Origin: Strigamia acuminata
Taxonomy: Eukaryota > Arthropoda > Chilopoda > Geophilomorpha > Linotaeniidae
Assembly: GCA_949358305.1 (NCBI GenBank)
Contig: OX442323.1
Coordinates: 5,828,001 to 5,892,000 of the forward strand
Reading direction: 5' to 3'
Length of the DNA: 64,000 nt
In this document: positions 14,050 to 35,700 of the stretch, one piece after another
How positions within the stretch are numbered: the stretch's first letter is position 1
Layout: every line of letters starts with the position of its first letter
Notes under the pieces: generated by a model
Database searches by the model: none
What the model was told of the DNA's origin: nothing
What the model saw: the letters and a program-made list of their open reading frames with translations, nothing else
Program-made: the position numbers and the translations under genes

Positions 14050-14285
14050 TGTTGTGTCTTCCACCCCATTATTGATAATCTAAACATTGTATAGTGGGTT
14101 GCTAGGAGATCGTCCCCTAGCAACCCACCTCATTCTTTAACTTCATAAAAATAGTCGACTCACTAAATCAAACCGAATCAGTCGTCTTGTTTTTCTCTGG
14201 CCTTTAGGCCCAAACATGAACATCAAATGACGGCCATGCTCTCGCATGGCCCGAACGCATGAACACATTCATCTCAGACACAATA
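14050..14285 (+). repeat. 5' LTR of the TRIM/LARD-like element
   Basis: This 236-bp LTR contains an 11-bp inverted repeat (GGGTTGCTAGG … CCTAGCAACCC) that could form a hairpin. Confidence 0.92.
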
Positions 14286-15294
14286 TTGGCGCAGTTGCGT
14301 GAAAAGAAACCTGTGCAAATCGAATCGAGGAATGCAACATGGAGGCGCACGAGCCATTAAGAACGAATCAAGTAGAACTTTAGTTGGGAATTGTGGTGCA
14401 GTGGACTAAATAGTGGCCCGCTCATCACTCGTTACGGCCGTTCGTTGCTCGTTGCTCGTCACTCGCCACGACCGTTCGCCGTGGCCGCTCGTCACTCGCC
14501 ACAATCGTTCGCCGCCGCAGTCGCTCGTCGCTCGTCCCAGCTGTTCGTTACATCTGCGTGTTTGCCTCTCGTCGCGGGCGCTTGTCAACGGTCTTCAACG
14601 CGAACGATTTCGATTTCCGCCTTCGCCCGCTCACGTAACTCAGGAACCTAAACCTATCGAACATTTCTCGTAATTACTGGACTGCTCACTCTTTGGTTGG
14701 TTACGTCGCCATGGTACTTGTCCACTCGCCCAGGCGAGTTGACCCATCGCTTCATTGACTGGACATATGAAATAAGCCGTAGACCGTGTGTGTTTTTTCT
14801 ACACCGCGTGCTTTGTTTTGTGCAACACGACCGATGTGGTCGTGCAAAGCATCGACGTTGTTCTCTCATCGTGATCACTCGCCTGGCCTTTCCTTGGCTG
14901 CTCGCTTGGGCCTTCCGTAGTTCCGTGCCTTTGGAGTTCACCGTTTGCTCGCCCGGTGTGCTCGCTTTTCCCTCGTTTCGAGGAGGGAAAGTGGGCCGCT
15001 TGTTGCTTGCTGCAGCCTCTCGTCGCTCTCTGCGCCCGCCTGTGGGCTGCTCACTTGCTCCCGTCGCCGGACTTTTCGTTGGTGACCGCCCCTACATTTG
15101 CTTGGCCACTCGCCGCCCCGCATTCGCGTGGCCTGCTCGCCCCCGCCACGCTGTTTTGCCCGGGGTGCCCGCTTTTCTCTCATTTCGATGGGGGAAAGTG
15201 GGCCGCCCATCGCAACCAAGCGTGAGCCGCTCGCCGTTTTTAGGGTTCGTGTTTGCCACCCTGCATCCGCGTTGGCCCCTAGCATTCTCGTGGC

Positions 15295-15470
15295 CTACTC
15301 GCCGCATTCGCGTGCTCTATTCGCCGCATCCGCGTGCTCTACTCGCCGCATCCGCGTGCTCTACTCGCCGCATCCGCGTGCTCTACTCGCCGCATCCGCG
15401 TGCTCTACTCGCCGCATCCGCGTGCTCTATTCGCCGCATCCGCGTGCTCTATTCGCCGCATCCACGTGCT
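15295..15470. repeat. 22-bp minisatellite in the TRIM/LARD-like element
   Basis: About eight copies of a 22-bp unit (core CTACTCGCCGCATCCGCG) with T/C variants. All frames stay open across it, which creates misleading ORFs. Confidence 0.9.
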
Positions 15471-15474
15471 TCAA

Positions 15475-15570
15475 GTCGTCGCACCAGCGAGTCGTCGCAC
15501 CAGCGAGTCGTCGCACCAGCGAGTCGTCGCACCAGCGAGTCGTCGCACCAGCGAGTCGTCGCACCAGCGA
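15475..15570. repeat. 16-bp minisatellite, six exact copies
   Basis: GTCGTCGCACCAGCGA is repeated six times without change, directly after the 22-bp array. A third, two-copy repeat around GCGGGACCTCAAGTCGC follows at about 15610-15665. Confidence 0.92.
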
Positions 15571-15768
15571 GTCGCTGCTCGCCACCATGCGACCACGAGT
15601 TGCCGCTCGCCATCGCGGGACCTCAAGTCGCCGCTCGTCATCGCGGGACCTCAAGTCGCAGCTCGTTGCGGGACCTACCGTATTTGGGCTGCCGCCCGCC
15701 ACCGGATTTGAATCGTCGCACGTTGCTGCTCTTCCCTCTATTTGAGATCTTTTGTAAGGGGGAAGGCA

Positions 15769-16004
15769 TGTTGTGTCTTCCACCCCATTATTGATAATCT
15801 AAACATTGTATAGTGGGTTGCTAGGAGATCGTCCCCTAGCAACCCACCTCATTCTTTAACTTCATAAAAATAGTCGACTCACTAAATCAAACCGAATCAG
15901 TCGTCTTGTTTTTCTCTGGCCTTTAGGCCCAAACATGAACATCAAATGACGGCCATGCTCTCGCATGGCCCGAACGCATGAACACATTCATCTCAGACAC
16001 AATA
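15769..16004 (+). repeat. 3' LTR of the TRIM/LARD-like element
   Basis: Matches 14050-14285. The CAAAT target duplication and hamartin exon 3 follow immediately. Confidence 0.92.
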
Positions 16005-16409: not shown

Positions 16410-17128
16410 GACTTGCGACTGAGAAATAAGAAAAAATCAGTGGAATGAGTCATTTTAGTGTTAGGTTTATAAATGTTGATGAATTTACAAGTTAGTTAAG
16501 TAAATTGTCAATTATTTTATCCCCGCGAAATACAAAATTGAGTATCTCGATGTGATTATTAGTAGAAGGTTATCTGCAGATCTTTATACCGCATAAAAAA
16601 GGCCAGTTGTAATTTACCTCAGAGAATTCCAAGCTAAATCGACGAGTCGGAATAATAATATGTAGAAATACGTTTGTCCTCCACTCTTGCCAGCCTCAAA
16701 TGCGGCGGTTCATCAGCTGTCTCAGCTGCTGTGGATGAACCTAGCGGCGAATTTTGGTAATGTTGAACTGCATATGGTAAAATTTGTGTTTTTGAAGATT
16801 TTAATTATACATTTAATTATACATTTAATTATATTTAATTACATTTAATGACACATTTTTTTGTTTCTTTAGATTTAATAGTAATATAATAAAAAAAAAT
16901 TATTATTTATTTGTTTTGTTATTTTTTATACACGTCTGAGAAAAACAACAAATGTTACACTACCGTTACAATTCAAATTTAAAACCACAATTTAAAATGT
17001 ATGCGCGTTCCGCAAGTGGTGAATTTTGACACATGGTAAAAGACCGAAGAAAAGACCGAATGGGCGGTTAGTATTTACGGAAGGGTAGAAGGTACTGTAC
17101 TTCAGGAAGATAATGATTTTGTTTACAT
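16410..17128. other. Upstream region of the hamartin-like gene
   Basis: No coding sequence is recognisable. A CG-richer patch near 16680-16750 is the likeliest promoter or 5'UTR for the minus-strand gene. The rest is AT-rich up to the ACAT target duplication of the Ty3-type element. Confidence 0.45.
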
Positions 17129-18603
17129 TGCAGTGGCCATGATGGTCACTGAGTGATTTGAAAAGAACAATTTAATATTATTATCATAATTTGTGTGCTT
17201 TATCGTGTTTTTCCAAGTGTTTTAATATTTATTGGACAGAGAAAATTGAGAATTCCAGAGCAATCATCACGTTTTTCCAAATATCATTATGCTGTATCTA
17301 AAAGAATAAATATTTTGATGTTTTATTTCTTATATAAAAAAGACTAATTTCTTTATTCTCTCAATCATACTTAATATTGCACCACATTGAGCAAGGAGAA
17401 CAGGTGATGCAAAATCACCACAGCAACCAGCCCTGGATGGTGCACAGGATGTGCATCCTGCTCCCGGATAAAGAGTTATGGCGCAATCTAAATTCACATA
17501 AGGAGTTGTGGTGCAATTCACCTAGGAGTTCTGGGAGAAATTGCTCCCACAACTTCAGTTCAAGTCTCCTTTTCACCAGTACCAGTCATGTCATATTTTG
17601 CTCCAGTGTTTCTACAAACCCAGTAATAATATGATTGTGATTATCCTGCACCAAAGGAATTTGGATTCACCTTGCTGATAGGGTTAAGCAGCTAGGTTTC
17701 ATCTTGCCAAAAGGGATTCTTTGGCTAGATTTTGTCTTGCTATTTGGGATTCAATAGCTAGATTTATCTTGCTCAAACAGCCAGTTTGAGCTGAGATTTC
17801 AGTGGAGTTTTGTAGCCAAATTGTGTGTAACAATTTGGGAGTTTATCTTTGCACTCAGAGCAAGGGAGTCTTAGCCTTGGACTTTAACAAGCGGGCGCCT
17901 CCTTGAGCGTTTAATCAAGAAGAAATCGAGTAGCGATACGAGATTTACTGTGTGAGACGTACGAGAGACGGACGACATCGCCGCAGCCGACGGAACCACC
18001 GCGGGACCCGAATTGCGAGACGCCGCCCGAGACGAACCACGACGACCAGCCGCCACGGAATTTCTCAGGCCCGAGAAATTACCTGAACAGCCAGCCGCCG
18101 AGGAGGAGAGTTTGCAGAAGCGTGAGTAGTGTTGAAAAGTGCGAAAAGCACGTCCTTTCCGGATATCCCGGCACTATTCTCGCCGTTTGCAAGTTGCGTT
18201 GTTGCCATTTGCAACAATCAAGAAGAAGTAACGAAGCCACGACGTTGCAAGCCAGCCACGTCGCGGGAGAAGTTTTATTGTTTCCGTATTACTAACATTT
18301 CGATTATTTGAAGTAGTATTGTTTAAATTACGCATTATTTGTATAATTAACCCAATTTTTCCCCGAATAAATAACAAATATTCATTTCAAGCAAGTAAAG
18401 TGTATTTTATTAGCCAAACCAGATTTAAGTAGTCAATTTTAGTGAGTTTAGTCTGAGAAGGAGTATTAATTTAAACATTAATATTTCTCCTCATTTGGGA
18501 AGTTATTTGTTTAGAATATTAGAAGAATATTCAGGTTTTGATAAGACCCGTTGTGGCAACCCGTTGTATCTCATTTGCAAAGGTGACATTCGAGGTCACA
18601 ACA
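17129..18603 (+). repeat. 5' LTR of the Ty3-type element
   Basis: This 1,475-bp LTR carries a TATA-like TATATAAAAA at 17331 and an AATAAA at 18366. A strong splice donor (GCGTGAGTAG, GT at 18122) could serve a spliced leader. The small ORFs inside it have no recognisable content. Confidence 0.94.
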
Positions 18604-18625
18604 CTTGGGGGCCTGGCCTTTAGAT
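18604..18625 (+). other. Putative primer binding site of the Ty3-type element
   Basis: CTTGGGGGCCTGGCC follows the LTR. From the TGG it begins like the tRNA-Pro primer sites of other retroelements (TGGGGGC) but then diverges, so the primer tRNA is not settled. Confidence 0.5.
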
Positions 18626-18729
18626 TTGAACCTTAAAAAGTTTTGAATTAACTGAGGGACCTCCATCTTTTATTATTGTTAGCATTTCAAGTCTGTTTCT
18701 TTCTTCTCTGTCATTTTTCTTGACTAATA

Positions 18730-21700
18730 ATGCCACCAAAGAAGGACAGGACACGCCAACGAGGTGCGAGTACTTCACGTCGTGCAAAGACGCGAGGAGG
18801 AGCGACAGGTGCGGACGGCGCTGAATATTTTTTGATGCCCTCTCGTACACCGTCCACTGAGTCTGAACATGGACAAGCAGAGGGCGGACAACAGTCGCCA
18901 AATTTACTAACGCAAGATATGCAGACGGGAGAAACTCAAAAAGATGTTGCGCTGACACCTACCAAAACCACTGAATTTCGGCAAGAAGATTACGTGACTC
19001 CAACACATTCACGAGCGAGTAGTGTGAAGTCCAAAGACAGTAAGCCGTATGATAAATGGTCAAAAGAAGAGTTATTAGCGATGGTCAGAGCAACGAGAAA
19101 ACGGGTGAAGGAACTGGAAAGTCGGCGCGCGACGCCATCGTCCAGTAGAAGCATTTCCACGTCGGGGACAACGTCACCAACACGTGAACTATTACGTGAA
19201 GTTAGATTTCGGATGCAGCAGTTGTTTAATGAGACACAAGATGCAGTTGACGATACAGCACGAAGATATGAAGAAGGCGTACCGCTAACACAAGCAGGTG
19301 CGACTGCAGCGGTGGAAGATGCTGAGAGGAGAACAAAAGAATTTCACAACTTACGTCTGCAAGAGGATCAATTGATAAAGCAATATCACATGGAAGATCG
19401 TCATGCGAGAAAACATCGTAAAGATCGTGAAAACCTCAAATTAGCATTAGATAAGCAGCTAAAAAACGTGCAGGACCAGATGGCCGTCGAAAAGGCGCGA
19501 CTTGCAGATGCACAAAACGAAATCACGAAACAAATGGATATCGGGAAAACTCGACTTGCGGATGTGCAAAGAGAAATGACGAGACAAGTGCTATTAGATA
19601 AGAAAAGGATGGAAGATGATGATTTGCGCCACAAGGAAGCTATGCGGAAAATGGACGAACACCTTCTGGAAGAAAGAAAGAAAATAGAAGTTGAACGAAT
19701 ACGTGTAGAAACAGAACGTAAGCGCGTCCAAGCAGAGAGAGCGAAATTAGAAACAGCCGTGCAAGATGAGAATGATTATTTGCGTAGGGCGACCCTCGAT
19801 GCTCAAGAAGAGGCAGAGAGAGCGAAGCAAGCTTTACTGGAAATGAAATATTTGGCGCAACTACAGTATTCTCAGTCGCAACAAGAAGTTCCTACAGAAT
19901 TTGTGATTGAAGACTCGTCAGCTCCAATCAAAAGGGGGAAAGTGAGTGGAATAATTCCACCAGACGACAAAAAATCAACAGCTTCACCCACGAGAAATAA
20001 AAATTTGCTGAATGTTATTGATCAACGAAATCAGAAGCATAACACACCAGGAAAAGATAAATGCAATCCGGAAAATCCGTCAAGACAAGGGGATTGGTCT
20101 GAAACAGAAGGAACGGATTACAAAAGCGATTATCCGAAAAACTTGAGCAAAGAATTATTAAAAGATCAACTTGATGCGAACAGAGAAGGGAATATGAACC
20201 TAGATAACACAAGTGGAGGACGAGGAATTACTTTCACTGCACAGTCAACTGAGAATCGTGAAAAAAGGAAGTATTCACCCGAGCATGGAGCTGGAAGAGG
20301 TGCACAATTTCACGAAGAAAGTGATTATTCGCCAGAGCGCGAAAGAGAACCTCGTAAACATATTAGGACGGGTCAACCTTTTGAAAGAGGCAGAAATGAA
20401 GAAAATTCTCGTCAAAATTACGACCAAAGTCGAAGTGAGTGGGGTTCGTACAGAGAAAACGAACAAAACTACCGAGGTCGAAACTCACGTCAACAGCAGG
20501 ATCAAGGTCGAGACAGAGGTCCACCACCAGGAGATTCTTATCATGACCAACAGCAAAGAAATCACTCAAGCTATAATCGAAGTCGGTCGAGAGACAGAAG
20601 TAGAGGTTCAAGAGACAGTCACAGTCGGTCAAGATCGAGACAAGGCGGGTCAATGCATGACGACGATCAAGATGCACAGTTGGGGAGAGAATGGCTAGAA
20701 AAATTTATTTCAGACAAGATTCAAGAGGGGTTGACAGGAAAATCTGCAAGACAAAAGGCAATGGAAGCAGCTTTGCAGAAGAAAATTAGAAAATATTGCG
20801 CAGTCAATTGGGTACATCGCATAGTGCGAGCAAGTGAAATTAAGTGGGATAGAATAAATCCAGATTTGTTTGACGGCAGTTGGTTAGCAGGAACACAATT
20901 TCTGGATGAAATTCTAAGATTGGCAAGGAGCCATGGAGCCGATCCACAAGATGCATTGGAGAGAATAATTCCAAAGGCATTAACGGGAGGAGCAGCAGAT
21001 TGGTTTTGCGAAAGTAGATTTACAAATTGGGATAAATTTGCAGCAGGATTCATCAAAGAATATGGCGAGTCTGGAGAGACTTTAATGAAATATTGGGACG
21101 ATTTGCACCAAATGCCAGGTGAAGACATTAGAGAATTCTTAAAGAGAACTGAGGAATTAGTGAAACGTCTGCCCGATCATCAGAGTGATTCGACAATAGA
21201 CAGACAGTTTCGAAAAGGCCTAACAGAATATTCTAAAAGTGTTCTTTTAACCACACACGTACCAGTGGAAAGTTCATTCAAGAAGTTAGCAGAATTCCTT
21301 AGAGATAATCAAGAATTAATAGATGAAACATTTTTAAAATATCTGCCATTTATGGAACAAGAAGCTCGAAAAGACTTCTTACAACAGCAACTGGAATTCA
21401 CCAGAGCAAACTCCAAAATGATGCAGCCTCGCTCAAGATTTCAGGCCAATCAAAAGGAAACTAAAGTAATAACGGCAAGAGGTTCGGGAGCTTCACCGCA
21501 CCCACCACCCAGAGTTCCGATGACACCATCAGCAAAATGGGTGCATGACGTGGACGACGACGGGGAACCAACTGGACACACTTTATATCAGATGAACTTG
21601 CCAACGCGACAGGATGTGGACGACTTGATAGAAGCAGCTCAAGCATTCTTTACAAAAAGTAATGCAACGGCGCCGAAGTATCAACCGCCCACTCAACCAA

Positions 21701-22029
21701 AATCTGTACCAGACACGATAACGCCAACAAAGAAAGCCGCTAGGGTGGACATAAGAAAGACACCGCAAGAAATGGTGACGTCAATGCCGCCTGAGCCAGC
21801 TAAACCCACCGAGGAAGAGAAGCAACCGGCCAAAGTTGACACTGGAAAGGCGGAAGAGATGCCTGAAGCAACTCCACGTGTCAAATTAACGCCCGAAACT
21901 TCACCTTGCCACAACTGTGGTCAAATAGGACATTGGGCGAGACAATGCACGCAGCCGCCCAAGCCAGTATCCAAAGAGGAGATGCGCAAGGCAATTCGTA
22001 CATTGACGGAATGCCTAAAAAACATGTAA
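18730..22029 (+). CDS. Ty3-type Gag (1,099 aa) with coiled coil and SR-rich region
   Basis: Starts at ATG 18730 in AATAATGCC. The N-terminus is basic. Roughly residues 150-390 are charged heptad-rich coiled coil (EERKKIEVERIRVETERKR). Residues about 500-660 are Arg/Ser/Gln-rich and include an SR-like run (RSRSRDRSRGSRDSHSRSRS). A retrotransposon Gag capsid-like domain follows (about 690-880: LTGGAADWFCESRF, FAAGFIKEYGESGE, MPGEDIREFLKRTEELVKRL). One CCHC knuckle (CHNCGQIGHWARQC) lies near 1060. It is several times longer than a usual Ty3 Gag. The stop at 22027 is preceded by a -1 slippery site. Capsid role follows from the family; the function of the N-terminal additions is unknown. Confidence 0.93.
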   Translation: MPPKKDRTRQRGASTSRRAKTRGGATGADGAEYFLMPSRTPSTESEHGQAEGGQQSPNLLTQDMQTGETQKDVALTPTKTTEFRQEDYVTPTHSRASSVKSKDSKPYDKWSKEELLAMVRATRKRVKELESRRATPSSSRSISTSGTTSPTRELLREVRFRMQQLFNETQDAVDDTARRYEEGVPLTQAGATAAVEDAERRTKEFHNLRLQEDQLIKQYHMEDRHARKHRKDRENLKLALDKQLKNVQDQMAVEKARLADAQNEITKQMDIGKTRLADVQREMTRQVLLDKKRMEDDDLRHKEAMRKMDEHLLEERKKIEVERIRVETERKRVQAERAKLETAVQDENDYLRRATLDAQEEAERAKQALLEMKYLAQLQYSQSQQEVPTEFVIEDSSAPIKRGKVSGIIPPDDKKSTASPTRNKNLLNVIDQRNQKHNTPGKDKCNPENPSRQGDWSETEGTDYKSDYPKNLSKELLKDQLDANREGNMNLDNTSGGRGITFTAQSTENREKRKYSPEHGAGRGAQFHEESDYSPEREREPRKHIRTGQPFERGRNEENSRQNYDQSRSEWGSYRENEQNYRGRNSRQQQDQGRDRGPPPGDSYHDQQQRNHSSYNRSRSRDRSRGSRDSHSRSRSRQGGSMHDDDQDAQLGREWLEKFISDKIQEGLTGKSARQKAMEAALQKKIRKYCAVNWVHRIVRASEIKWDRINPDLFDGSWLAGTQFLDEILRLARSHGADPQDALERIIPKALTGGAADWFCESRFTNWDKFAAGFIKEYGESGETLMKYWDDLHQMPGEDIREFLKRTEELVKRLPDHQSDSTIDRQFRKGLTEYSKSVLLTTHVPVESSFKKLAEFLRDNQELIDETFLKYLPFMEQEARKDFLQQQLEFTRANSKMMQPRSRFQANQKETKVITARGSGASPHPPPRVPMTPSAKWVHDVDDDGEPTGHTLYQMNLPTRQDVDDLIEAAQAFFTKSNATAPKYQPPTQPKSVPDTITPTKKAARVDIRKTPQEMVTSMPPEPAKPTEEEKQPAKVDTGKAEEMPEATPRVKLTPETSPCHNCGQIGHWARQCTQPPKPVSKEEMRKAIRTLTECLKNM

Positions 22030-22062
22030 GCGCGATTCCTGCACGGCCAGGGGAACTCGCGC
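22017..22062 (+). promoter_or_regulatory. -1 ribosomal frameshift signal at the gag-pol junction
   Basis: In the Gag frame the sequence reads CTA AAA AAC ATG TAA, giving the slippery heptamer A AAA AAC at 22017-22023, two codons before the Gag stop. After a 6-nt spacer comes a stem GCGCGA (22030-22035) / TCGCGC (22057-22062), with an inner pairing CCTG/CAGG. Slipping by -1 enters the pol frame exactly (…MPKKHVSAI…). Confidence 0.88.
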
Positions 22063-25000
22063 CAGAAAAAATTTCGGAACTGGCCATAACGGAGGAATGT
22101 CGGATGGAAGAGATATTTGTCGCCCCATTTAGCGTAGCCCCACTGAAAATGGTTTTGACCCCTCCAGAAGCCATTGGAACTATGAGAAAGAAGGGTGAGA
22201 TAATTTATACAATGAAGGAAGGTCAAATTGTCGGAATACAGTTTCCACCGACAGAATTATCACTTTTGACGAAAATTAAAGAGGCAATAAACGCTGGTGA
22301 ATCATTTTTTAAAGAGAAAGTTTACGAAGTGTTAAAAGAAGTAAAACTAGTAGAAGAAAATGAAGCTTTAGTGTTTTGGTCGAAAGTGAAGAAAAATTTT
22401 GAAGATGAGCCAACTATCGAAGCTCACGTGATGGAAGCACCATGCACGTGGACAGATGTAGACGCATGTATTGAAGAAATGACCAAACTTCCGTCAATAC
22501 CACAAAGAGTAAGAGTTTTTAAGGTCATAATACCTGAAGACGAAATTTTGGAAAATATGACGACAATGGAGATTGTGACGGAACACGGAAGTGTAATGAC
22601 CAATTTGGATTCAGGTGCGAATCGGAGCTGCATTTCATTGCCTGTAGTGCGAGCATTGGGAATGGAGAAGTTTGTTACTAAAGTAAGACCCAACATGGCA
22701 ATAAACACCGCAGATAAGAAGGTGCAACCCCTGGGTTCAATACGAATACCTTTTCGGTGGTCGCATGGGGCAATGATTCATTCATTTCTGGTGCTGCCCC
22801 ATGAAGTAAAATTTGTATTAATGGGCAACGACATCATGAGACAAATGGGAGTACAACCAAACCCCATCACAGGAAAATGGAACTTTGTCACCAATTTTAA
22901 AATTCCATGCGAATATGTTCCACAAGAAGTGCTAGATCGACTAGAAAAGAAAAAAGAACATGCTGAATCAACTTATCGCACATTCAAGAAAGACTCGAAT
23001 TTTGCAGCATTTCAAGCTCGACTTAAAGTAGGAAATGGAGTGTCGAATTTAGTCGAAGAAGCGAAGCTTCAATTGAATGAAGCCGCGCAATTAGAAACAG
23101 TGCTAAAAAGATATGAGAAAATTCTGACAAAAACGCCCGGCAGAACGCACATTCTGCAGCATTCCATCGAATTGGACACAGAAAGACCAATTAGAGTGCC
23201 CTTTCGAAGCTGGAATCCGCAGAAGAGGGAAATTTTGCGACAAATGTGTCAAGAATTAAAAGACAAAGGCTACGTGTCGGAGGCAGAGGGAGATTATGCA
23301 GCAAGGATTGTGCTAGTGTCAAAAGCAGGGTCAGACCCAAGACTCTGTATCGATTACAGGCCAATTAATGAGCACACCCGCTATGACCCACCACAGATGC
23401 CGACGATAACAGAAATACTACGAGAACTTGGCGAATTCCAATGGGTTTCCACAATCGATTTGACCAAAGGCTACTGGCAAATCGAACTACGGCCAGAGGA
23501 TCGGCCAAAGACAGCCTTCTGGAGTCCCATTGGGAGATTGATGTTTAATGTAATGCCATTTGGATTGGTAAATGCGCCTACTACATTTCAACGCTTAATT
23601 GAGAAAGTTTTAGGAGATGCATTCCATAGCTACGCTTGGGCTTACTTAGATGACATCGTCATAGTTTCACAGACATACGAGCAGCACATGAAACATCTAA
23701 ATTCAGTGCTAAAAAAGTTAGAAAAGGCAAACTTGCATGTGAACCCAGAGAAATCAAAGTTTTGTAGAAAGCAACTAAAATTTCTTGGATTTAGTTTGGG
23801 AGTAGAAGGAGTGGCAGCCGACCCAAAGAAAGTCAGTGCCATTGCGGATTTTCCACCACCAACAAATCTGACCGAACTACAACGCTTCTTGGGAATGGTC
23901 AATTTCTTCCACCGGCTGTTGAAGAACTTAGCCACCATTGCAGAGCCACTGCGACCATTGCTCAAGAAAGGAGTAAATTTTGAGTGGAAGGAAGAACATC
24001 AAACTGCATTCGACCAAATTAAACTTCTGCTAACCGACTCAAAAACAATGATGTTACCCGACCTTAACAAGCCGCTGATTGTCCACACGGATGCGAGCAA
24101 AAAGGGGTTAGGAGCTGCATTAATGCAAGAGAAAGAAATTGACGGCCAAATGATTGAAGTTCCATGTGTGTACATCAGCAGGAGTCTGCAGCAAGCCGAA
24201 AATAATTACAGTGCCACCGACTTAGAGTGTTTGGCGGTCATCTGGGCTCTACGCAAATTCAGAGCCTATTTGGAGTTTACTTCATTTACTGTGCAGACTG
24301 ACCACCAGGCCCTCCGATGGTTAATGCGACTTGAGGAACCTGCAGGAAGACTCGCAAGATGGCAGATGGAACTCATGTCGTATAATTTCCAAATACAATA
24401 CATAAAAGGACCAGCCAATGTTCTTGCAGACGCCATGTCAAGAGCACCAGTGGACTTGCCCGAAAATGATGAGGATAGTGGTGAAGCTGACGGTGACACT
24501 TCCTACTGCCCAACAGAGTCACGTCACTGGAAATTTAAAAATTGGAATCAGCTGCCGGTGCAAGAAGAAGCGCCCACTAGTGACGAACAGTTTGTTGCAC
24601 ACTGGTGCAATGTCTATAACGTTGGAGAAGCTCACAGTGAAATGCAGAAAGAAGAGGAGGAATGGCAATATCTTCCAAGTACCGAGAATGAGATGATCAG
24701 TGCATTTGTCGCCAAAGTGACAGAGCAAATGGATTGCACTCCACCAACAAGGCAGGATTTTATTGATCACCAAACCACTGACAAACAATGTCAACGGATA
24801 CGTCATTACTTGGAAACTCAGCAGTTCCCACCTCAAATCACAACGAGACTCCAGCGTCGAAAGTTTTGCAAAAGGGCCTCGCAACATATTCTAGAAGAAG
24901 GTTTATTGATGAGATATCATCCCACGATTACGGACGAATTTGATGATAGCAACAGGGCATTGAAAGTGGTAGTGCCAAAGTCGCTGAAACATCGAGTGTT

Positions 25001-26792
25001 GTGGTTAATGCACGGCCACCCTTTGGCGAGTCACTGCGGAATTTCAAGAACGATGTATCGAATAAAGCAGATTTACACTTGGGAGAGCATGAAAGCAGAT
25101 GTGTCACGATTCATCCGACACTGCACAAGATGTCAGGCGTGCAAGCCGAGAAAAAAGACAACAACTGAGTCAGCGAACATTGGACCCTATGCGCCTTTCG
25201 AATGCCTAAGTGCAGATTTAACAGGACCTAAACCTCGGACCAAAGAAGGCAATAACTACATCTTCGTCGTAATCGACATTGCGACAAGATGGCCGATATT
25301 ATTTCCAATGGACGGACCGACAGCTCAGCTAGTGGCAGACTGCATTTACGACGTATCAATGGATTGGGGCTTTGCACAAAAAATTATTTCGGACAATGGC
25401 CCGCAATTTAAAGCAGCATTTTACAAAGAATTTTGCAAAAAGTACAAAATGACTCCGAAATTCACTTCACCTTACCACCCACAAGCCAACCCGGTGGAGC
25501 GCCTTAATAGAGATATAAAATATATCATTGCAATTTTTACATCAATCCACAACCGGTGGGATGAATTTTTAAGAGAAATTGCCTTCAGTATTAGAACCAC
25601 GGACACAAGAGGTCGTGGCTATTCTCCCGCCTACTTGAATTGCGCAAGAGAGTTTCGCATCCCGTGGGACCCAAGAATACTTGATGGAATGCTAAAAATT
25701 GATCCAGATCGTCCGGAAATTTATGTGCAAAAATTAGAGAGAATAATTAGCGACACCTATCAACATATGCAGGCGCATATCACGGATTTACGAGAGCGTG
25801 TCGAAGATCACAAGTTGGACAGCAAGTTTGAAAACTTTAGAGTAAACGACCTGGTATGGCGAGAGAATCATGCACTATCAAGAGCAGCGAGAGGATTTTC
25901 CGCCAGTATTGCGGATAAAAGGACGGGGCCTTACGTGATCACACAAGTGCATCAAGGGGGCGCCGTGAAGTTAAGACGCTTAAAGGACAATAAAGTTTTC
26001 ACCTCAATTCACACATCGGAATTAACGCCCTATTTCCCGGAATTCAACCAAGAAATTTGGGTGGAGGGCCAAACTGAAAGTAATCCCGACGCAGAAGTTA
26101 TCAACACATTGTTAGACGACATTCCGCCAACAAAAGAAATCGTGCAAGAAAACACAGGAATCTCAGAGGAAACTCCACAGCTAGAAAATGAAATACGCGT
26201 GCAAAAGGACACTGAAATTCAAGAAAATGCACAAATTTCAGAAGAAAATGCGCAAACAGAGTTAGAAAGGCCGGAAAACATAAATAAAGGCGATGAAGTC
26301 GAGACGCAGTTGCAAGTGCCACCGGTAGATGTCGCTCAAAATCAAGCGAAGCAACCGGAGGCGAGAAATGAGGAGAATGACAAAGTCGAAACGCAACTAC
26401 AGATGTTGCCGGAAGATGTCGCCCAAGCACAGGCACATTCTCAAAAACAAAAAGACGTCGAAATTCAAAACGACGAAGTCAGAATAGGAAGTGGGCAAGG
26501 AGAAATACAAGCACAAGAGGATGCCGAAATTCAAAACGACGAAAGCTCACAAAACACGGAAAATGTAGCGGAAAAGGAGAATTCTATTTTATTTCCACTT
26601 AAAGAGTTTTTTGGAGGTGAAGAGCAATTAAAATCACTCCAAAAAAGGGGGGAAGAGTGGAGTGGAAAAGAAAAACGCAAAAACAAATACAAAAATTTAT
26701 TAAAAACTTCGCCAAGAGAGAAGAAAACTGCCTCGAAATATACATTAAGAGACAGAGCGAAGTTGAAAGCCCCGAGCAAGCTGAGGGACTAA
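22023..26792 (+). CDS. Ty3-type Pol (about 1,590 aa), expressed by -1 frameshift
   Basis: The frame is open from at least 21906 and overlaps gag by 124 bp or more; translation should enter at 22023. Domains: retropepsin (NLDSGANRSCIS); RT (LCIDYRPINEHT, TIDLTKGYWQIEL, FGLVNAPTTFQRL, catalytic AYLDDIV); RNase H (VHTDASKKGLGAAL, YSATDLECLAVIWAL, QTDHQALRWL); integrase HHCC (HGHPLASH…CTRCQAC), D-D-E core (LSADLTGP, IISDNGPQF, NPVERLNRD) and a GPY/F-like module (KRTGPYVITQV). The C-terminal 250 residues are acidic and Gln/Glu-rich with imperfect internal repeats (VETQLQVPPVDVAQ / VETQLQMLPEDVAQ). There is no chromodomain. Its stop TAA overlaps the ATG of the third gene. Confidence 0.95.
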   Translation, partial: HVSAIPARPGELAPEKISELAITEECRMEEIFVAPFSVAPLKMVLTPPEAIGTMRKKGEIIYTMKEGQIVGIQFPPTELSLLTKIKEAINAGESFFKEKVYEVLKEVKLVEENEALVFWSKVKKNFEDEPTIEAHVMEAPCTWTDVDACIEEMTKLPSIPQRVRVFKVIIPEDEILENMTTMEIVTEHGSVMTNLDSGANRSCISLPVVRALGMEKFVTKVRPNMAINTADKKVQPLGSIRIPFRWSHGAMIHSFLVLPHEVKFVLMGNDIMRQMGVQPNPITGKWNFVTNFKIPCEYVPQEVLDRLEKKKEHAESTYRTFKKDSNFAAFQARLKVGNGVSNLVEEAKLQLNEAAQLETVLKRYEKILTKTPGRTHILQHSIELDTERPIRVPFRSWNPQKREILRQMCQELKDKGYVSEAEGDYAARIVLVSKAGSDPRLCIDYRPINEHTRYDPPQMPTITEILRELGEFQWVSTIDLTKGYWQIELRPEDRPKTAFWSPIGRLMFNVMPFGLVNAPTTFQRLIEKVLGDAFHSYAWAYLDDIVIVSQTYEQHMKHLNSVLKKLEKANLHVNPEKSKFCRKQLKFLGFSLGVEGVAADPKKVSAIADFPPPTNLTELQRFLGMVNFFHRLLKNLATIAEPLRPLLKKGVNFEWKEEHQTAFDQIKLLLTDSKTMMLPDLNKPLIVHTDASKKGLGAALMQEKEIDGQMIEVPCVYISRSLQQAENNYSATDLECLAVIWALRKFRAYLEFTSFTVQTDHQALRWLMRLEEPAGRLARWQMELMSYNFQIQYIKGPANVLADAMSRAPVDLPENDEDSGEADGDTSYCPTESRHWKFKNWNQLPVQEEAPTSDEQFVAHWCNVYNVGEAHSEMQKEEEEWQYLPSTENEMISAFVAKVTEQMDCTPPTRQDFIDHQTTDKQCQRIRHYLETQQFPPQITTRLQRRKFCKRASQHILEEGLLMRYHPTITDEFDDSNRALKVVVPKSLKHRVLWLMHGHPLASHCGISRTMYRIKQIYTWESMKADVSRFIRHCTRCQACKPRKKTTTESANIGPYAPFECLSADLTGPKPRTKEGNNYIFVVIDIATRWPILFPMDGPTAQLVADCIYDVSMDWGFAQKIISDNGPQFKAAFYKEFCKKYKMTPKFTSPYHPQANPVERLNRDIKYIIAIFTSIHNRWDEFLREIAFSIRTTDTRGRGYSPAYLNCAREFRIPWDPRILDGMLKIDPDRPEIYVQKLERIISDTYQHMQAHITDLRERVEDHKLDSKFENFRVNDLVWRENHALSRAARGFSASIADKRTGPYVITQVHQGGAVKLRRLKDNKVFTSIHTSELTPYFPEFNQEIWVEGQTESNPDAEVINTLLDDIPPTKEIVQENTGISEETPQLENEIRVQKDTEIQENAQISEENAQTELERPENINKGDEVETQLQVPPVDVAQNQAKQPEARNEENDKVETQLQMLPEDVAQAQAHSQKQKDVEIQNDEVRIGSGQGEIQAQEDAEIQNDESSQNTENVAEKENSILFPLKEFFGGEEQLKSLQKRGEEWSGKEKRKNKYKNLLKTSPREKKTASKYTLRDRAKLKAPSKLRD

Positions 26793-26794
26793 TG
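26790..26794 (+). promoter_or_regulatory. TAATG stop/start overlap between pol and gene 3
   Basis: The Pol stop TAA (26790-26792) shares its last A with ATG 26792-26794, which opens the third frame. Such overlaps allow termination-coupled reinitiation in some viruses and retrotransposons; here that is a possibility, not shown. Confidence 0.6.
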
Positions 26795-29700
26795 ACGTCA
26801 GTAGGGATCCAGGAAGTGGATGACGTCGCGAGCTCGAAGGTGATTGGAGGTTCAGAGTTCACATGTGAGTTCGAAGACGACGAAGCGCACGCAAAGTCGG
26901 AAAATTGGATAAGCAATAGTTTCGATATTAAGAGAAAGGAGATATCACAATTGGTGAGTGAAATCGATTCAAAACAGAAGGAAAATTCACCAAGATTAAC
27001 GCAATCAAACTTTCGGCAACTTTAGATCATCGATCGGCTACAAAAAACAAGGATGGCCGGACGAAAAAGATCACATGAGAAGTACGAGGACAGCGAACTT
27101 GCAGCAATGTCGCCCGAAGCAGTAAGAAATATAAAAAACTTGTGATCGGGGAAAAGAAAATATTATTAAAATGTGGCGACATCGTTTCTAAACCGAGTGA
27201 ATCGTGGAGAATTTAACGAAAGCAAATTCGATAAAAAAGAAAGAAAAACTCGTAAGGAGGCCGGGAAAAGATTAAGTTTAGTAACTTCAACATAAAAGAA
27301 GCGAATCAAACAAATATTTAAGTCAGCAAAGCGAGAATATTAAACGGGTTTATGCAAAACAGAGATTCCGGAAAATGTTCAAAGCCGCCTCGTGATTTAA
27401 AGCGTCGCGAGCGCCATCTAGTGTTGAAATGGATAAACTCGGGCGATAGAACGGCGTTGTTGGCGCCATCTAGTATCCAAATAGACAAACTCGAATAGAA
27501 AGCGATGTCGCGCGCAACCGTTTAAATGAAATAAAAGGCAAAAAATATTGAAATAAAATCTAATTTCAGGCGAAAATTTTGTCGGACTCGTGGGATGCGC
27601 TGCCAAACAGTGTTGTCACCAAACGAAGTATTTTTCGGGGCCGGCTGCCAAGGAAATACAAGAAAGTCTGCCAGGAGAAGGATTACACAGCATATCGAGC
27701 GAGGAGAATATTTACATCGGCGGCCAACAAAAGATTTGGGACCAAAAGGAGGTTGGCTCAATGCACAAATGGAGAATTGAGAGAGGAACTACGAGTCATC
27801 GCTTGGGCAGATGACCCGCCAGGGCCATTTGGGTCGAAGATGCTACAGGAGGCATTCCCTCTAACAGAAGAAGAGTTGGAGGATTTAGAAATATTCCTCC
27901 GTCCGGAAACCGACAAGAGAGAATTCCAGGAGAAAATCATGGCAAAGCTCAGGACCAACATGCACCAAGTTGCAGAAGAGTACCTCCAGGAGGAGCAGGA
28001 ATATGAGCAAACAGGCGGGAAATTAGAAGACGGGACGTACCGATTACCACCCTACTACAGGCAAACACAGTATAAGCTGCATCAGCTCAAAATGGTTGGA
28101 GTTCTAGACAGAGACTACATTCCTGTGCCGATACCGCCAGAATTTCTGCAGCAAGCGGAACAGCAAAACACCGAGCATTGGCAGGGGAGCAGCGGCACCT
28201 ATCAAGAGCGCCCACAGGAGTCCACATCCAGAGACGTTGAGTGGAAAGTATTGTCGCAGTACAGAGTGGATCGTAAAGTCTCTCCACTTTCATTGGTGCG
28301 GGCCAGTCAAGAGGAAGAGTTCCTTTCCGTGGACGTTAATGAAGACATTGACATGAGGTCAACCGCGAGCAGACGGCCATCGGGAGAGTCGCGAGCAAAG
28401 AGTGGAGAACCAGAGACAGTGCGGAGCATCCCATCGCCGATAATATGGAGTGCATCGCTACCACCGCCGCCTCGTTCAGGGACTCTCGAACCAAAAGTGG
28501 AATCAAACATGTTGCACCTAAAACGGAAAAATGAGTTTACCAAGTTGGAAGCCAAAGAGGAAGTGCGAGTGAAAGACAAGCATCCACACACAGAGCCCGT
28601 GGTAGGGGAAGTTCAGAGGATGGACCACTCGATCCCCATGCCGGATACGGCAGTCATGAACTACTCTAGCAACATGGCAATGAGGCCAGTGGAGGGCTAT
28701 GATAAACATTACTACGACCTGTGGGACTGCTGTCTTCGGTTCCCAGCGGCAATATTGGAACAGTTTAAGGAAAGGTTGGATCTTTATCAGCAAGCGCAAT
28801 TGAAAGAAGCGCAGGCCGATTTGATTCGACGAGCAAAAGAATTTGTTGAGTGGCCTTTAAACGAGCAAACCCAAAGGCGATTGCAAAAATTCCAAAAATT
28901 AACAATTCCGGCCCAGCAGAGACTTCTTTTCCCCGGGGTATTTACAACGGATGAAGACGCCTTCACAGCCGCGAGTCTACTTTGGGGCACACACTTGGGC
29001 ATGACCGAGGAGAAGTTGGAGAATTGGCTCTCCGTACTGTACGATCCGGTCTTGCTGCGAAGTAATCTTATTTTGAGAGCCTTGGAGAATGGGGAAACCG
29101 TGGATCAGTGCTTTGTCAGGCTGCGACACGAGTGGGATCTGCGCCGAGAAGAGATGGAACTAAGGAGGGACTCCGAGACTTTTGGGGGGCGACCAATGCC
29201 AAATGTTCAGCCAGCGGGGTCCGAAACAAGATGGCGACCGGTGAGGACGTCAAGTTTGGCCTCCTCCACCTCCACAAGGTTGGAAACCTCATTCGCATCA
29301 TGTTCAAGTTATGAGCAGGGGTATGGATCAGCCGGTGCGGGGAATCATGTGGTGCCTCATCTGTCGAGGTTGGAGCTTAGCCACCAAAGCGGGGAGACCA
29401 CAACCTCAAGTCAGGATCCCACACGAGAGTGTGCCGAGTCAGCAGAAATTAAGCCCCGACAGAAAAGCGATAACGACAACTACGGGAAGATCCGCCGTCA
29501 CTATCCTCGGCTGCAATTTGGGCGAGGGACACGCACGCTTCTCATTTTCAACCCGAAGCTGTGCAAGGAAGCCTTCGCCTGGCTGGAGCGAGCCTTGAGA
29601 GAGCCCGGAAACCCGACCCAACGGCAAAGAGTGGTATTTGCGCACCGCCCGCCAAAAAGCCGTAGGGAGTTGTTTGAAATGGATTACATTAACCTAATCG

Positions 29701-29843
29701 ATAAGATCGCGCACGTCCAAGGCGTTTGGATGCACGTTAACACGGGAGTGCAGTCGGGACCCACAGTGGGTTTGCCGAAATTTTCGGTGTCGGAAGAAGA
29801 ACGGCCACCACTGCCGCCATTCCCCAGGGTAAAGGCAGTTTAG
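26792..29843 (+). CDS. Third gene of the Ty3-type element, spliced, about 811 aa, unknown function
   Basis: Model: exon 1 26792-26953 (54 codons, MTSVGIQEVDDVASS…KRKEISQL), intron 26954-27569, exon 2 27570-29843 (757 codons plus TAG). The donor CAATTG|GTGAGT and acceptor CTAATTTCAG|GCG are strong and both phase 0. Exon 2 is open from 27564 with no ATG until about 27839, so an upstream exon supplying the start is expected. The product is rich in Glu, Arg and Gln, with a basic N-terminal patch in exon 2 (KRSIFRGRLPRKYKKV), an acidic-helical middle, a Pro/Ser-rich linker and a C-terminal block (LIFNPKLCKEAFAWLERAL). No signal peptide, transmembrane helix or Cys-rich ectodomain is visible, so it is not an envelope. 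I recognise no family. An unspliced reading would stop at 27025. Confidence 0.72.
27411..27472 (+). promoter_or_regulatory. Two CTCF-like motifs in the gene-3 intron
   Basis: GCGCCATCTA occurs at 27411-27420 and 27463-27472, within a roughly 52-bp imperfect tandem repeat. The reverse complement TAGATGGCGC resembles the insect CTCF core. Binding is untested. Confidence 0.4.
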
Positions 29844-29941
29844 TGAGAGCAGAAAATGCCACTGCTACCCTTAGTCCGGAGGGCTAAGCGGTTTGGTGAA
29901 GAGAAAATTTGGATGGCGCATCAATGCAAAAAGAGGGGAAG

Positions 29942-31416
29942 TGCAGTGGCCATGATGGTCACTGAGTGATTTGAAAAGAACAATTTAATATTATTATCAT
30001 AATTTGTGTGCTTTATCGTGTTTTTCCAAGTGTTTTAATATTTATTGGACAGAGAAAATTGAGAATTCCAGAGCAATCATCACGTTTTTCCAAATATCAT
30101 TATGCTGTATCTAAAAGAATAAATATTTTGATGTTTTATTTCTTATATAAAAAAGACTAATTTCTTTATTCTCTCAATCATACTTAATATTGCACCACAT
30201 TGAGCAAGGAGAACAGGTGATGCAAAATCACCACAGCAACCAGCCCTGGATGGTGCACAGGATGTGCATCCTGCTCCCGGATAAAGAGTTATGGCGCAAT
30301 CTAAATTCACATAAGGAGTTGTGGTGCAATTCACCTAGGAGTTCTGGGAGAAATTGCTCCCACAACTTCAGTTCAAGTCTCCTTTTCACCAGTACCAGTC
30401 ATGTCATATTTTGCTCCAGTGTTTCTACAAACCCAGTAATAATATGATTGTGATTATCCTGCACCAAAGGAATTTGGATTCACCTTGCTGATAGGGTTAA
30501 GCAGCTAGGTTTCATCTTGCCAAAAGGGATTCTTTGGCTAGATTTTGTCTTGCTATTTGGGATTCAATAGCTAGATTTATCTTGCTCAAACAGCCAGTTT
30601 GAGCTGAGATTTCAGTGGAGTTTTGTAGCCAAATTGTGTGTAACAATTTGGGAGTTTATCTTTGCACTCAGAGCAAGGGAGTCTTAGCCTTGGACTTTAA
30701 CAAGCGGGCGCCTCCTTGAGCGTTTAATCAAGAAGAAATCGAGTAGCGATACGAGATTTACTGTGTGAGACGTACGAGAGACGGACGACATCGCCGCAGC
30801 CGACGGAACCACCGCGGGACCCGAATTGCGAGACGCCGCCCGAGACGAACCACGACGACCAGCCGCCACGGAATTTCTCAGGCCCGAGAAATTACCTGAA
30901 CAGCCAGCCGCCGAGGAGGAGAGTTTGCAGAAGCGTGAGTAGTGTTGAAAAGTGCGAAAAGCACGTCCTTTCCGGATATCCCGGCACTATTCTCGCCGTT
31001 TGCAAGTTGCGTTGTTGCCATTTGCAACAATCAAGAAGAAGTAACGAAGCCACGACGTTGCAAGCCAGCCACGTCGCGGGAGAAGTTTTATTGTTTCCGT
31101 ATTACTAACATTTCGATTATTTGAAGTAGTATTGTTTAAATTACGCATTATTTGTATAATTAACCCAATTTTTCCCCGAATAAATAACAAATATTCATTT
31201 CAAGCAAGTAAAGTGTATTTTATTAGCCAAACCAGATTTAAGTAGTCAATTTTAGTGAGTTTAGTCTGAGAAGGAGTATTAATTTAAACATTAATATTTC
31301 TCCTCATTTGGGAAGTTATTTGTTTAGAATATTAGAAGAATATTCAGGTTTTGATAAGACCCGTTGTGGCAACCCGTTGTATCTCATTTGCAAAGGTGAC
31401 ATTCGAGGTCACAACA
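29942..31416 (+). repeat. 3' LTR of the Ty3-type element
   Basis: 1,475 bp, matching 17129-18603. The target duplication ACAT follows at 31417-31420. Confidence 0.94.
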
Positions 31417-31462
31417 ACATATTTAAAATTATACCATTTACGATCTCTATCTAATAAATTAC

Positions 31463-31735
31463 ACGGACATCAAATGTCACGATTCTTTTGTATTTTTTTT
31501 ATTGAATTTCTTTGAATGAAAAATTCAATGTCAAAGTTACGGGCGTCGATTGGTCGCCGATTAATTACGATTTGATTGGAAGCGGCGACGACAAAGCAAC
31601 GATTTGTCTATACGTGAATGGAAAATTACGTGAAAAAAGACATTTTTATGGAGAAAAAAAAAATTCTCAGGTCATAAATGCAAGACGTTCAATTTATGCC
31701 ACAACAGCGCTCACAAACAGACTTTCCTTAATTTT
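31463..31735 (+). pseudogene. GEMIN5: Scrambled GEMIN5 fragments (third copy)
   Basis: 31463-31623 matches the end of GEMIN5 exon 1, intron 1 and the start of exon 2 (compare 33019-33180; VDWSPINYDLIGSGDDKATI is readable). At about 31688-31733 it jumps to a piece of exon 15 (CCACAACAGCGCTCACAAAC, compare 37237 on). An AT-rich repeat shared with the NUDCD2 introns lies between. It is non-coding debris. Confidence 0.8.
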
Positions 31736-32733: not shown

Positions 32734-35700
32734 ATGAGAGGAATCGGTTTAGCTCCTTCGCCCAACTGGTATTGCAGCAGGGTCAGCGACTGTACGGCCG
32801 ATGGCCTTTTTGCGTTCGGAATCAAGCAAAATATCGCGCTACTAAAATTAACGACAAATCCACCGACGTACACCGGCGTTTTGAACGGACGTACGCTCAA
32901 CGACCGCGTCGTCGGTGTCCGCTTTGCGCCGAGTCAGACGGAATTAGTCTGTGCGTCCGAAACGGGAACCGTAACCATCTGGAACGTCAACAACCAAGTG
33001 GAATTAAAGCAGTTCCACGGACATCAAGTAAAATAAACGAAATGTCGCAATTTTTTCTATTTTTTTATTCAATTTCTATGAATTTTTCAGGCCAAAGTCA
33101 CGTGCGTCGATTGGTCGCCGATTAATTACGATTTGATCGGAAGCGGCGACGAAAAAGGAACGATTTGTCTATACGTGAATGGGGGCGTTAAGAAATATCA
33201 AATTCACAAATCGGGACAAGTTTCTGTCATCACGTTTTCGCCGTACGACAAAAACGTCCTCGCCGTTGGGTAATTTTTTTTTCTTTTTCACCGTTTAGGA
33301 ATTAATTTCTAATCAATTTTTAATTATTTGAAATAGATTTCGCGACGGTTTGATTTTGGTTCTTCACGCCTTGAATTTACCCGCGCATGTGCATCTTTTG
33401 CGACGCCACGAGGACGAAATCCAGAGTTTGTCGTGGTTCACCACCGGCGGTTTGAACGAAATATTCTTAGCGTCTGGCGGCAAAGATGCCACGGTCCGGC
33501 GATGGGACGTTTCCGAGGGAAAACTCGTCACGACGCATAAAATACCGCAATATTCGTCCAGTTATCGCTCGCGACATCAGGACGATCACGTTAAAAGTCG
33601 ATTATGGGTGACGCTTTACTGGTGCAGCGAGTTGGAAACGCTATTCTGCTCCGGTTATCAGTAAGATTCTTAAGAAAAATTAATAAAATAAATAAAATAA
33701 CGAGTTTTAATTGATTTATTTCACAGTGGCGAGTTGTTATCGCTGAATTTATCGAAGGAATCGTCGAAACAACAGTGGGAAGTTGTGTGTAACAAGGAAT
33801 GTCCGACGCACAACCGAAGCATTTTTAATATTTCCGGGTTTGAGTCGATGGCGTGCACAATATCGATGGACAGACAAGTATTTGATCAATTTAAATTGGG
33901 ATGTTTTATCGATTTAAATTATTATTTTTTGTTTAGATTATTGTTTGGGATTTGGCGGCTAAAAAGAGCGTTCATTCGGTCGCCACTTTGGGTGGGTTCG
34001 TGTACGGTTTACACTTTTCACCGGTGGATTCGAGTCGCTTAGCGGTGGCCGTCGGTGATAATATAATCCGCGTTTGGAATACTTCGTTGTCCGCCGGTTC
34101 CTACAGCGTGTCGTGCTTCTGGCAAGGACTTCGGAGCAAAGTGACGACGGTTGGTTGTGATTTTCGAAGGATAATTCGGGATAAATGATTGATTGGATTG
34201 AATTTTAGGTCGCTTGGCATCCGAAGATGGAAGGACGACTCGCTTTTGGGACGGACGAAGGACGGGTTGGAATTTATAATGTTTTGAGTAACAAGTAATG
34301 GTTTTTTTTAATGTTTTTATCGCGTTTTGGAAGTGTTTGTTAATGGGTTTGGTGTTTAGGCCGCCATTTATTGCGAATAGCAATCACAAGGGAACGGTGT
34401 ATACAGTTGTTTGGGGTGTACCGTGCACTGATAATAATAATGGTTGGTATTCTATTTAATTATTTATTTATTTTTTTTTTAATTTTTAATTTTTTAATTT
34501 ATTTAGACAGCGGTGAAATTAAACCGTCCAAACTGGCCGTTTATTCTTGCGGTAATGGGCTGATTTTGACTCATCCGAACGACTTAAAAGACGAAAAAAC
34601 TAGTCACGATTTGAATACGATTATCGAGAGATGTAATCCACATTTGGTACGAAGTTTTGTAAAGAAATTTTTTATTTTTTGTTGTTTTTTGGTTATTTTT
34701 ATTAATTTGTCGAATTATTTTGCAGCAAAAATTTCCATTACGATCGGAAATAACGTGGAATGATAGTTTAACGTTAATTGCGATTGGAAACGACGACGGG
34801 TACGTCTTGAATTAATGATAAATTGTGCTAAATATTAATTAATTAATTAATTAATTATAGGTCGATTGAAGTGTACAAAATGCCATCCGTCAAACGTCTC
34901 GTGGTCATCGTGGAAATCAGGAAACTTATTCAGTGTTTACGATGGCATCCGACGAGCACTCACGAAACCAACGACTCTCCTTTGAAATTCTGGTTGGCGG
35001 CTTCGTCCAACGATTCTTCCATCTCGGTTTACGATTTAGATGCGCACGTAGGTCCGTTTTGTGCACACAATCCGATTAATTCGACATTTTTGCTGATGTT
35101 TGTCGTCTATTTCAGGCGCGCAGAACGTGGACGAAGACGAAGCGATCATAACCAAATGTTCGCGGAAACTAGAAGGTCACAAACTGCGCGTGGTTTCTCT
35201 CAATTGGAGCCCGCACATGTGCGGTCATTTGGCGTCGGTTTCCTACGACGGAACGGCGCAGGTTTGGGACGTGATTCGCAGCAAGGGGATTGCCAACTTC
35301 CGCGGTCATTCCGGCCGGGTTTTCGCCGTGGAATGGAATCCGCTCGACCCCGACGTGATTTACACGGGCGGGGAAGACAGCACGGCTCAGCGATGGATCA
35401 TCAGCGAGCAGGAGCACAAAATGCCGCCCGAATGTACGTCGGGAGAGCGCTTTTTAATTATTTTGATTATTTTCTTTGTTTTTTATTAGTAGACATCGGG
35501 TGCAAGGCGAAGAAAAGCAAGAAAAAGAAAGCGACGGACGAAGCGAAGCCGGCGGAAGTGTCGGCGAACGAAAACGCGATGGCGGAAATTCAAATGTTGT
35601 TGCAGCTCAAACGGGAAGAGTTGCTACTGCAGGAGAAAATAACAAAGTGTAAAGAGAATGGTACGGATAAGTTAAATGGGGCAGTTGTAGCGGTCGCGGA

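Follow-up and report, generated by a model that had tools for sequence, protein, structure and literature searches.

In the Ty3/gypsy element Cer1 of Caenorhabditis, an orphan non-envelope protein called CERV is made from a five-exon mRNA and enables the export of unspliced RNA (PMC10309623). Drosophila errantiviruses carry an env-F third gene after pol that is read from a spliced subgenomic RNA (PMC12992720), and the long terminal repeat (LTR) elements of bdelloid rotifers carry diverse non-envelope third open reading frames (ORF3s), typically expressed from spliced messages (PMC5408684). Here we describe an element from the geophilomorph centipede Strigamia acuminata, found in a 64,000-nucleotide stretch of DNA (assembly GCA_949358305.1, contig OX442323.1, positions 5,828,001 to 5,892,000, forward strand) that we call the window, within which all coordinates below are given. 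Sequence comparisons give good support to the conclusion that this is a Ty3-type LTR retrotransposon carrying a third, non-envelope gene after pol that is probably read from spliced RNA.

The element shares with Cer1 its Ty3/gypsy class, the large size of Gag, an ORF downstream of pol without resemblance to Env, and an orphan third protein (PMC10309623). Cer1 produces its third protein from a multiply spliced mRNA and uses unspliced RNA for Gag-Pol and the genome, and we propose the same layout here. The two differ in that exons 1 to 3 of cerv share the gag frame, whereas the start that we favour in the present element lies in a mini-exon after pol. The env-F message of errantiviruses uses a short exon upstream of gag and yields a membrane fusion product (PMC12992720), whereas the exon proposed here lies after pol and the product shows no membrane features. 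Bdelloid ORF3s encode GDSL esterases, DEDDy exonucleases, coiled-coil proteins and transmembrane proteins (PMC5408684), whereas no Pfam family was recognized here. A preliminary description of this DNA had judged an intron confined to the 3′ gene of a Ty3 element, with a TAATG overlap, to be unusual, which is too strong given that the third genes of such elements are commonly expressed by splicing (PMC12992720, PMC5408684) and that the non-Env protein of Cer1 comes from a five-exon mRNA. Thus, a spliced third gene in Ty3 elements is already known, and what is new is the orphan protein family together with a coding mini-exon after pol.

The third gene downstream of pol

The largest part of the third gene is a single long exon (exon 2 below).

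27570..29843, + strand: main exon of the third gene, 757 codons plus TAG

The acceptor of this exon, CTAATTTCAG, ends at 27569, and the exon frame is closed just 5′ of it by a stop codon at 27561-27563. Direct re-checking found the coordinates of the preliminary description (Pol TAA at 26790-26792, ATG at 26792, donor at 26954, acceptor at 27569 and exon at 27570-29843) to be exact to the base. Its observation that exon 2 lacks an ATG for about 90 codons also stands, with the first in-frame ATG at 27840 rather than about 27839.

Searching the genome that contains the window (237.5 Mb in 157 contigs) with the large exon gave 14 listed matches. Ten of these span exon 2 entirely or almost so, namely the window copy (L001) and L002-L010. 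L002-L004 lie at even intervals on a single contig and gave equal counts, and thus are not independent copies. The close copies L002-L009 are 97-99% identical to the window copy (at least 96.6% for all of L001-L009), whereas L010 is 75% identical in the match table and 77% over aligned bases. The sequences TAATG, GGTGAGT and CAG/GCG (the slash marks the splice junction) are retained in all ten. Exon 2 is open throughout in eight of the nine close copies, L006 having a single internal stop; L010 is a decayed copy with frame shifts and stops.

Between the window and L010, the 524 differences in exon 2 are distributed as 103, 86 and 335 over the three codon positions, and gaps measure 30, 33, 3, 3, 3, 6 and 6 bases, plus one 1-base gap. 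The intervening 616-nucleotide (nt) stretch has 84 differences (28, 19 and 37 by phase) and gaps of 1, 2 and 9 bases, many of them of only 1 or 2. By the evidence of these alignments, the large exon is coding sequence under selection, and the intervening stretch is not a single long coding sequence.

Diverged relatives carry the exon-2 acceptor in matching phase 0 where exon homology begins (L025, both places of the L027/L028 group, and all seven places of L029-L035). This finding bears out the view that a third gene downstream of pol is real and requires an upstream exon, and splicing at acceptor 27569 very probably occurs. It is unlikely that exon 2 is translated independently from the ATG at 27840, because L025 and L027 conserve the 90 codons that precede it. 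The third proteins of L027 and L029 are 31-35% identical to that of the window over the N-terminal stretch that could be matched, compared with about 49-51% for the C-terminal part of Pol. No intron-less (spliced) retrocopy was present among the ten full-length copies or the other matches listed.

A putative coding mini-exon and a candidate leader

Joining position 26953 directly to 27570, as in the preliminary description, defines a 616-nt intron. Within it lies a 96-nt candidate exon that had been overlooked, and which we consider together with a candidate leader.

27026..27121, + strand: candidate mini-exon; acceptor AACTTTAG ends at 27025, ATG at 27053 opens 23 codons, donor GCA/GTAAGA at 27122, phase 0 to 27570
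27122..27569, + strand: 448-nt intron B under the favoured model, with non-triplet indels between copies
18122..18127, + strand: GTGAGT within the LTR, candidate splice donor of the leader, present in 30 of 31 rows and 19 of 20 distinct LTR sequences
17632..18729, + strand: ATG-free stretch running to the gag start, presumed to hold the 5′ leader

We favour, with somewhat better than even confidence, an mRNA composed of the leader to 18121, the mini-exon 27026-27121 and the exon 27570-29843, with the third gene being non-envelope. A non-coding leader ended by the LTR donor at 18122 would be joined to the acceptor at 27025, so that the first AUG of the spliced mRNA would be that at 27053 in the mini-exon. 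A second splice, from donor 27122 to acceptor 27569, would lead into the 757-amino-acid (aa) exon and give a protein of ~780 aa. Unspliced RNA would serve as the genome and as the Gag/Pol mRNA, and spliced RNA would produce the third protein. The copies seen retain both introns, as follows if unspliced RNA is the genome. We infer the use of these sites from the open frames, the conserved splice motifs, the constraint on the exon, the ATG mini-exon of four lineages and the ATG-free leader.

The ATG at 27053 is flanked by A (-3) and G (+4). The same plan, an ATG mini-exon leading to a donor, recurs in diverged relatives, with 24 codons to GTAAGA in L025, 18 to GTAGTA in L027/L028 and 17 to GTATTT in L029-L035. 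A mini-exon with a purine at -3 that is open in phase 0 to GTA or GTG is found in the window and L010, in L025, in L027, and in L029 and L036. Dinucleotide shuffles gave a comparable ATG-to-donor structure in 201 (window), 159 (L010), 214 (L025), 157 (L027), 131 (L029) and 147 (L036) of 2000 trials each, by criteria that were fixed only after the pattern had been noticed. Comparison of L029 with L036 reveals 2 differences in the 51 nt of the mini-exon, both at third positions, and 27 differences in the 60 nt upstream.

Several observations weigh against a coding mini-exon. Its donor scores low (0.4 in the window, -0.2 in L010, 1.0 in L025 and 0.5 in L029) compared with 4.9 for the donor at 26954, where donor scores and ranks derive from a splice consensus; in L027, the mini-exon donor is not among the top seven scored there. 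Differences between the window and L010 in the mini-exon fall 6, 4 and 7 by position, with no third-position bias, and L010 and L025, both cited for the mini-exon, are themselves decayed copies. The conservation between L029 and L036 extends about 60 nt beyond the mini-exon donor (5 of 60 differ). In L029-L035, exon 2 itself has an ATG after 9 nt, so that a coding mini-exon is not strictly required in those copies. Finally, the sequences L036-L039, which represent only two places (L036 overlaps L038, and L037 overlaps L039), share the mini-exon and its following acceptor, yet their exon 2 has an altered head, with the homologous frame out of phase with that acceptor. Such copies may have decayed, or their translation may begin at an ATG within exon 2. 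The two places (G000 C1, about 46.013 and 46.025 Mb) are L029-type copies located 12,371 bases apart and identical over the compared stretch.

The presumed leader region 17632-18729 (~1.1 kb) contains no ATG, compared with about 20 expected by base composition (8.5 for 17632-18121 plus 11.6 for 18122-18729). A start codon within the LTR leader is therefore ruled out, and a leader exon drawn from this stretch cannot provide the start. The preliminary description had proposed looking for a spliced leader from the donor at 18122. We compared 30 of 41 LTR matches, two of which are the window element's own, giving 31 rows with the window and 20 distinct sequences. GTGAGT is kept in all but one of the distinct sequences, and this conservation suggests that the hexamer is a candidate splice site. 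The bases immediately 5′ of it vary, the adjacent base in the window is not G, and the consensus score is only 1.7; a further point against the site is that the hexamer falls merely within the best-conserved 14% of the aligned part of the LTR. A GTGAGT in gag phase 0 is also present at 19942, where an exon shared with gag, as in cerv, might end, although the conserved ATG mini-exon would make such an exon unnecessary.

Intron B also contains two GCGCCATCTAGTR motifs (27411-27423 and 27463-27475), which are the sole exact GCGCCAYCTNGTR matches in the 64-kb window. A third match at 4197 has one mismatch, and inspection by eye shows similar motifs in the corresponding intron of L010, L025, L027 and L029. 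We take these motifs to resemble the insect CTCF site.

The stop/start overlap and the remaining element features

The Pol stop codon (26790-26792) and an ATG (26792-26794) overlap by one A. Three features in this region must be weighed against the mini-exon.

26792..26953, + strand: 54-codon frame whose ATG overlaps the Pol stop, exon 1 of the preliminary description; probably not the main start
26954..26959, + strand: donor GTGAGT (TTG/GTGAGT), present in 10 of 10 copies; a 72-nt intron to 27026 is possible
26794..26827, + strand: conserved stretch that follows the Pol stop and may form an RNA hairpin (weak; z from -0.05 to -1.47)

Stop-start overlaps that permit re-initiation are known from other retroelements. 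In the arrangement of the preliminary description, ribosomes would end Pol and re-initiate at ATG 26792 on an RNA spliced from 26953 to 27570. Its arithmetic is correct, as both junctions are phase 0 and the joined frame would comprise 811 codons. The proposed first exon is open and in phase at the donor in all nine close copies, the donor is strong (score as above, rank 4 among 557 GT sites in 17130-29941), and the ATG-free head of exon 2 demands some upstream start. We nonetheless regard this arrangement as quite unlikely, given that the frame does not survive in relatives: it is shifted by a 1-nt deletion in L010, ends at a stop after 33 codons in L025, and lacks the ATG at the Pol stop in L027/L028 and in the three L029-group members inspected (L029, L031 and L038). 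The ATG at 26792 has C at -3, a poor context, and no codon constraint is visible in the frame, although each close copy differs at just 1-4 sites (6, 2 and 9 by position against L010). Such an mRNA would also leave out the conserved ATG mini-exon. By the preliminary description's own account, related copies with the two pieces out of phase, or with an ATG at the head of exon 2, would speak against it; both occur, the pieces being out of phase in the decayed copy L010 and L029-L035 having such an ATG.

An extended isoform in the window's own family, joining 26792-26953 through the 72-nt intron to 27026-27121 and then to 27570-29843 (843 codons), would use both the strong donor and the mini-exon. 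Every junction is phase 0, each piece is open in the window copy, seven of the nine close copies have no indel in 26792-27121 (those compared, which do not include L003 and L004), and a GTGAGT lies near the same place in L025. This isoform is doubtful, in that the frame of L010 is shifted between the 1-nt deletion of its first exon and a further deletion, of 2 nt, ahead of ATG 27053, and neither L027 nor L029 could make it. What separates these readings is the behavior of the diverged lineages, which the mini-exon probably suits better than the TAATG frame does, save at the two places represented by L036 and L037.

DNA 3′ of the Pol stop is nevertheless conserved, with L027/L028 matching it at 86% over 57 bases. 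The TAATG overlap may thus be incidental to a conserved nucleic-acid element. The sequence at 26793-26827 can be written GACGTC...TCCA-GGAAG-TGGA...GACGTC, and in L029 it is partly altered with pairing partly retained. Folding energies are unremarkable (z = -0.05, -1.47 and -1.38). The conserved stretch includes TGACGTCA at 26793-26800, which is presumably cAMP response element (CRE)-like.

The remaining features of the element, which spans 17129-31416, are as follows.

17129..18603, + strand: 5′ LTR, identical to the 3′ LTR; 4-bp target duplication ACAT
18606..18632, + strand: presumed primer binding site, TGGGGGCCTGGCC..., 2 bases past the 5′ LTR
18730..22029, + strand: Gag, 1099 aa; Retrotrans_gag at aa 746-832, CCHC at 1059-1075
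21906..26792, + strand: Pol (reverse transcriptase (RT), RNase H, integrase), overlapping Gag in a different frame
29928..29941, + strand: polypurine tract AAAAAGAGGGGAAG, judged by eye, preceding the 3′ LTR
29942..31416, + strand: 3′ LTR, from sequence comparison with the 5′ LTR

Identical LTRs, a target duplication, a Gag with CCHC and the order RT - RNase H - integrase place the element in Ty3/gypsy (Metaviridae); in its overall build it may be called insect-type. A protease match in Pol (gag-asp_proteas, E 0.045) falls under the Pfam cut-off, and an Rfam scan of 17000-31500 gave nothing reaching the gathering score. Because the two 1475-bp LTRs are identical, the insertion is recent and the element, judged on its sequence, is young. 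The presumed primer binding site looks unusually long, extending into the apparent T-arm of the tRNA (TGGGGGCCTGGCCTTTAGATTTGAACC).

Other copies and neighbors provide additional observations. Three copies of the window family on G000 C9 (4410186, 4429612 and 4449038) are spaced by exactly 19,426 bases, an arrangement that resembles a tandem duplication including the element. At L025/L012 (G000 C1, about 35.80 Mb), the C-terminal part of Pol is 96.5% identical to that of the window and the third protein only about 42-56%, which suggests a mosaic formed by template switching; the divergence of L010 from the window also shifts at the start of exon 2. Upstream of the element, two identical 236-bp repeats (TGTTGT...ACAATA) at 14050-16004 surround DNA in which a 22-bp unit is tandemly repeated (15260-15501) and may form a small LTR-type element. 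Just beyond the element, 90-base repeats at 31532-31621 and 33093-33182 are 94% alike, with a WD40-like reading by eye.

The third protein and its possible role

The 757-aa exon product had no passing match in Pfam, PHROGs or PDB sequences, and PDB profile matches were weak only (E 0.2 or worse). No homologue was found at E <= 0.01 among the best 8000 candidates of the protein collection, none in IMG/VR with six peptide patterns, and no significant similarity to the element's own Gag was detected (best E 1.2). The product contains no CxxC motif and no strongly hydrophobic or membrane-like segment (best 19-residue Kyte-Doolittle mean 1.09); it has one N-glycosylation motif and one furin-like motif, at exon aa 43.

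These properties bear on what the third gene encodes. A position after pol and expression by splicing would suit the envelope gene of an insect endogenous retrovirus, as in errantiviruses (PMC12992720), but the membrane-anchored envelope that marks those elements was not recognized, and the low hydrophobicity, the lack of a Pfam match and the solitary glycosylation and furin-like motifs make this very improbable; we reject an envelope protein on these grounds. That the third gene encodes another structural protein or an accessory to replication, such as a capsid companion, is a possibility of some substance: the protein is a large orphan, and nothing in the Pfam and PDB searches opposes such a role. 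Against it, Gag already provides capsid-type and zinc-knuckle matches, and the third protein has no significant similarity to Gag.

We tentatively suggest instead, by analogy and at less than even confidence, that the third protein is a nuclear RNA-binding regulator that would let intron-containing element RNA leave the nucleus. The L027 version has an arginine/serine (RS)-rich stretch past about residue 200, and the mini-exons encode many basic residues in the window, L025 and L029 lineages and fewer in L027; the RS-rich stretch and the basic mini-exons of three of four lineages would fit an RNA-related role. In the Gag of the window copy, residues 617-638 also form a short RS repeat. Weighing against the suggestion, the searches gave no fold or domain that points to a regulator. 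Intron-containing transcripts are normally retained in the nucleus, and thus the element would need an export route for its unspliced RNA. The third protein would aid this export as CERV does for Cer1, the comparison being one of analogy only. CERV has a Cys-rich loop that is a candidate C4 zinc finger (PMC10309623), whereas the exon product here lacks CxxC, and the two proteins are likened by description, not by sequence. If the role is true, the element would share the principle of lentiviral Rev and its RNA element (PMC10309623), in which a spliced RNA encodes a protein that acts on unspliced RNA; the third protein here is far larger than Rev, and its RNA target is only supposed.

In a more speculative and rather improbable form of the idea, this Ty3 lineage would have independently built a Rev-like switch, in which a doubly spliced orphan protein with a basic mini-exon start acts on the hairpin after the Pol stop, confined to unspliced RNA, and shifts the balance from regulator mRNA to exported genome.

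The literature searched does not name this element and yielded no closer case, which does not show that the element is unpublished; the papers listed included no further study of CERV, and the passages of PMC13172572 that were examined contain no splicing term.

LTR-element third genes are easily mis-annotated where a short first exon hides in an apparent intron. To our knowledge, the nuclear exit of intron-containing Ty3 genomic RNA has been worked out for few elements other than Cer1. The present clade would offer a second testable case, as it combines an orphan third gene with a conserved, putatively coding mini-exon and a recent copy whose LTRs are identical.

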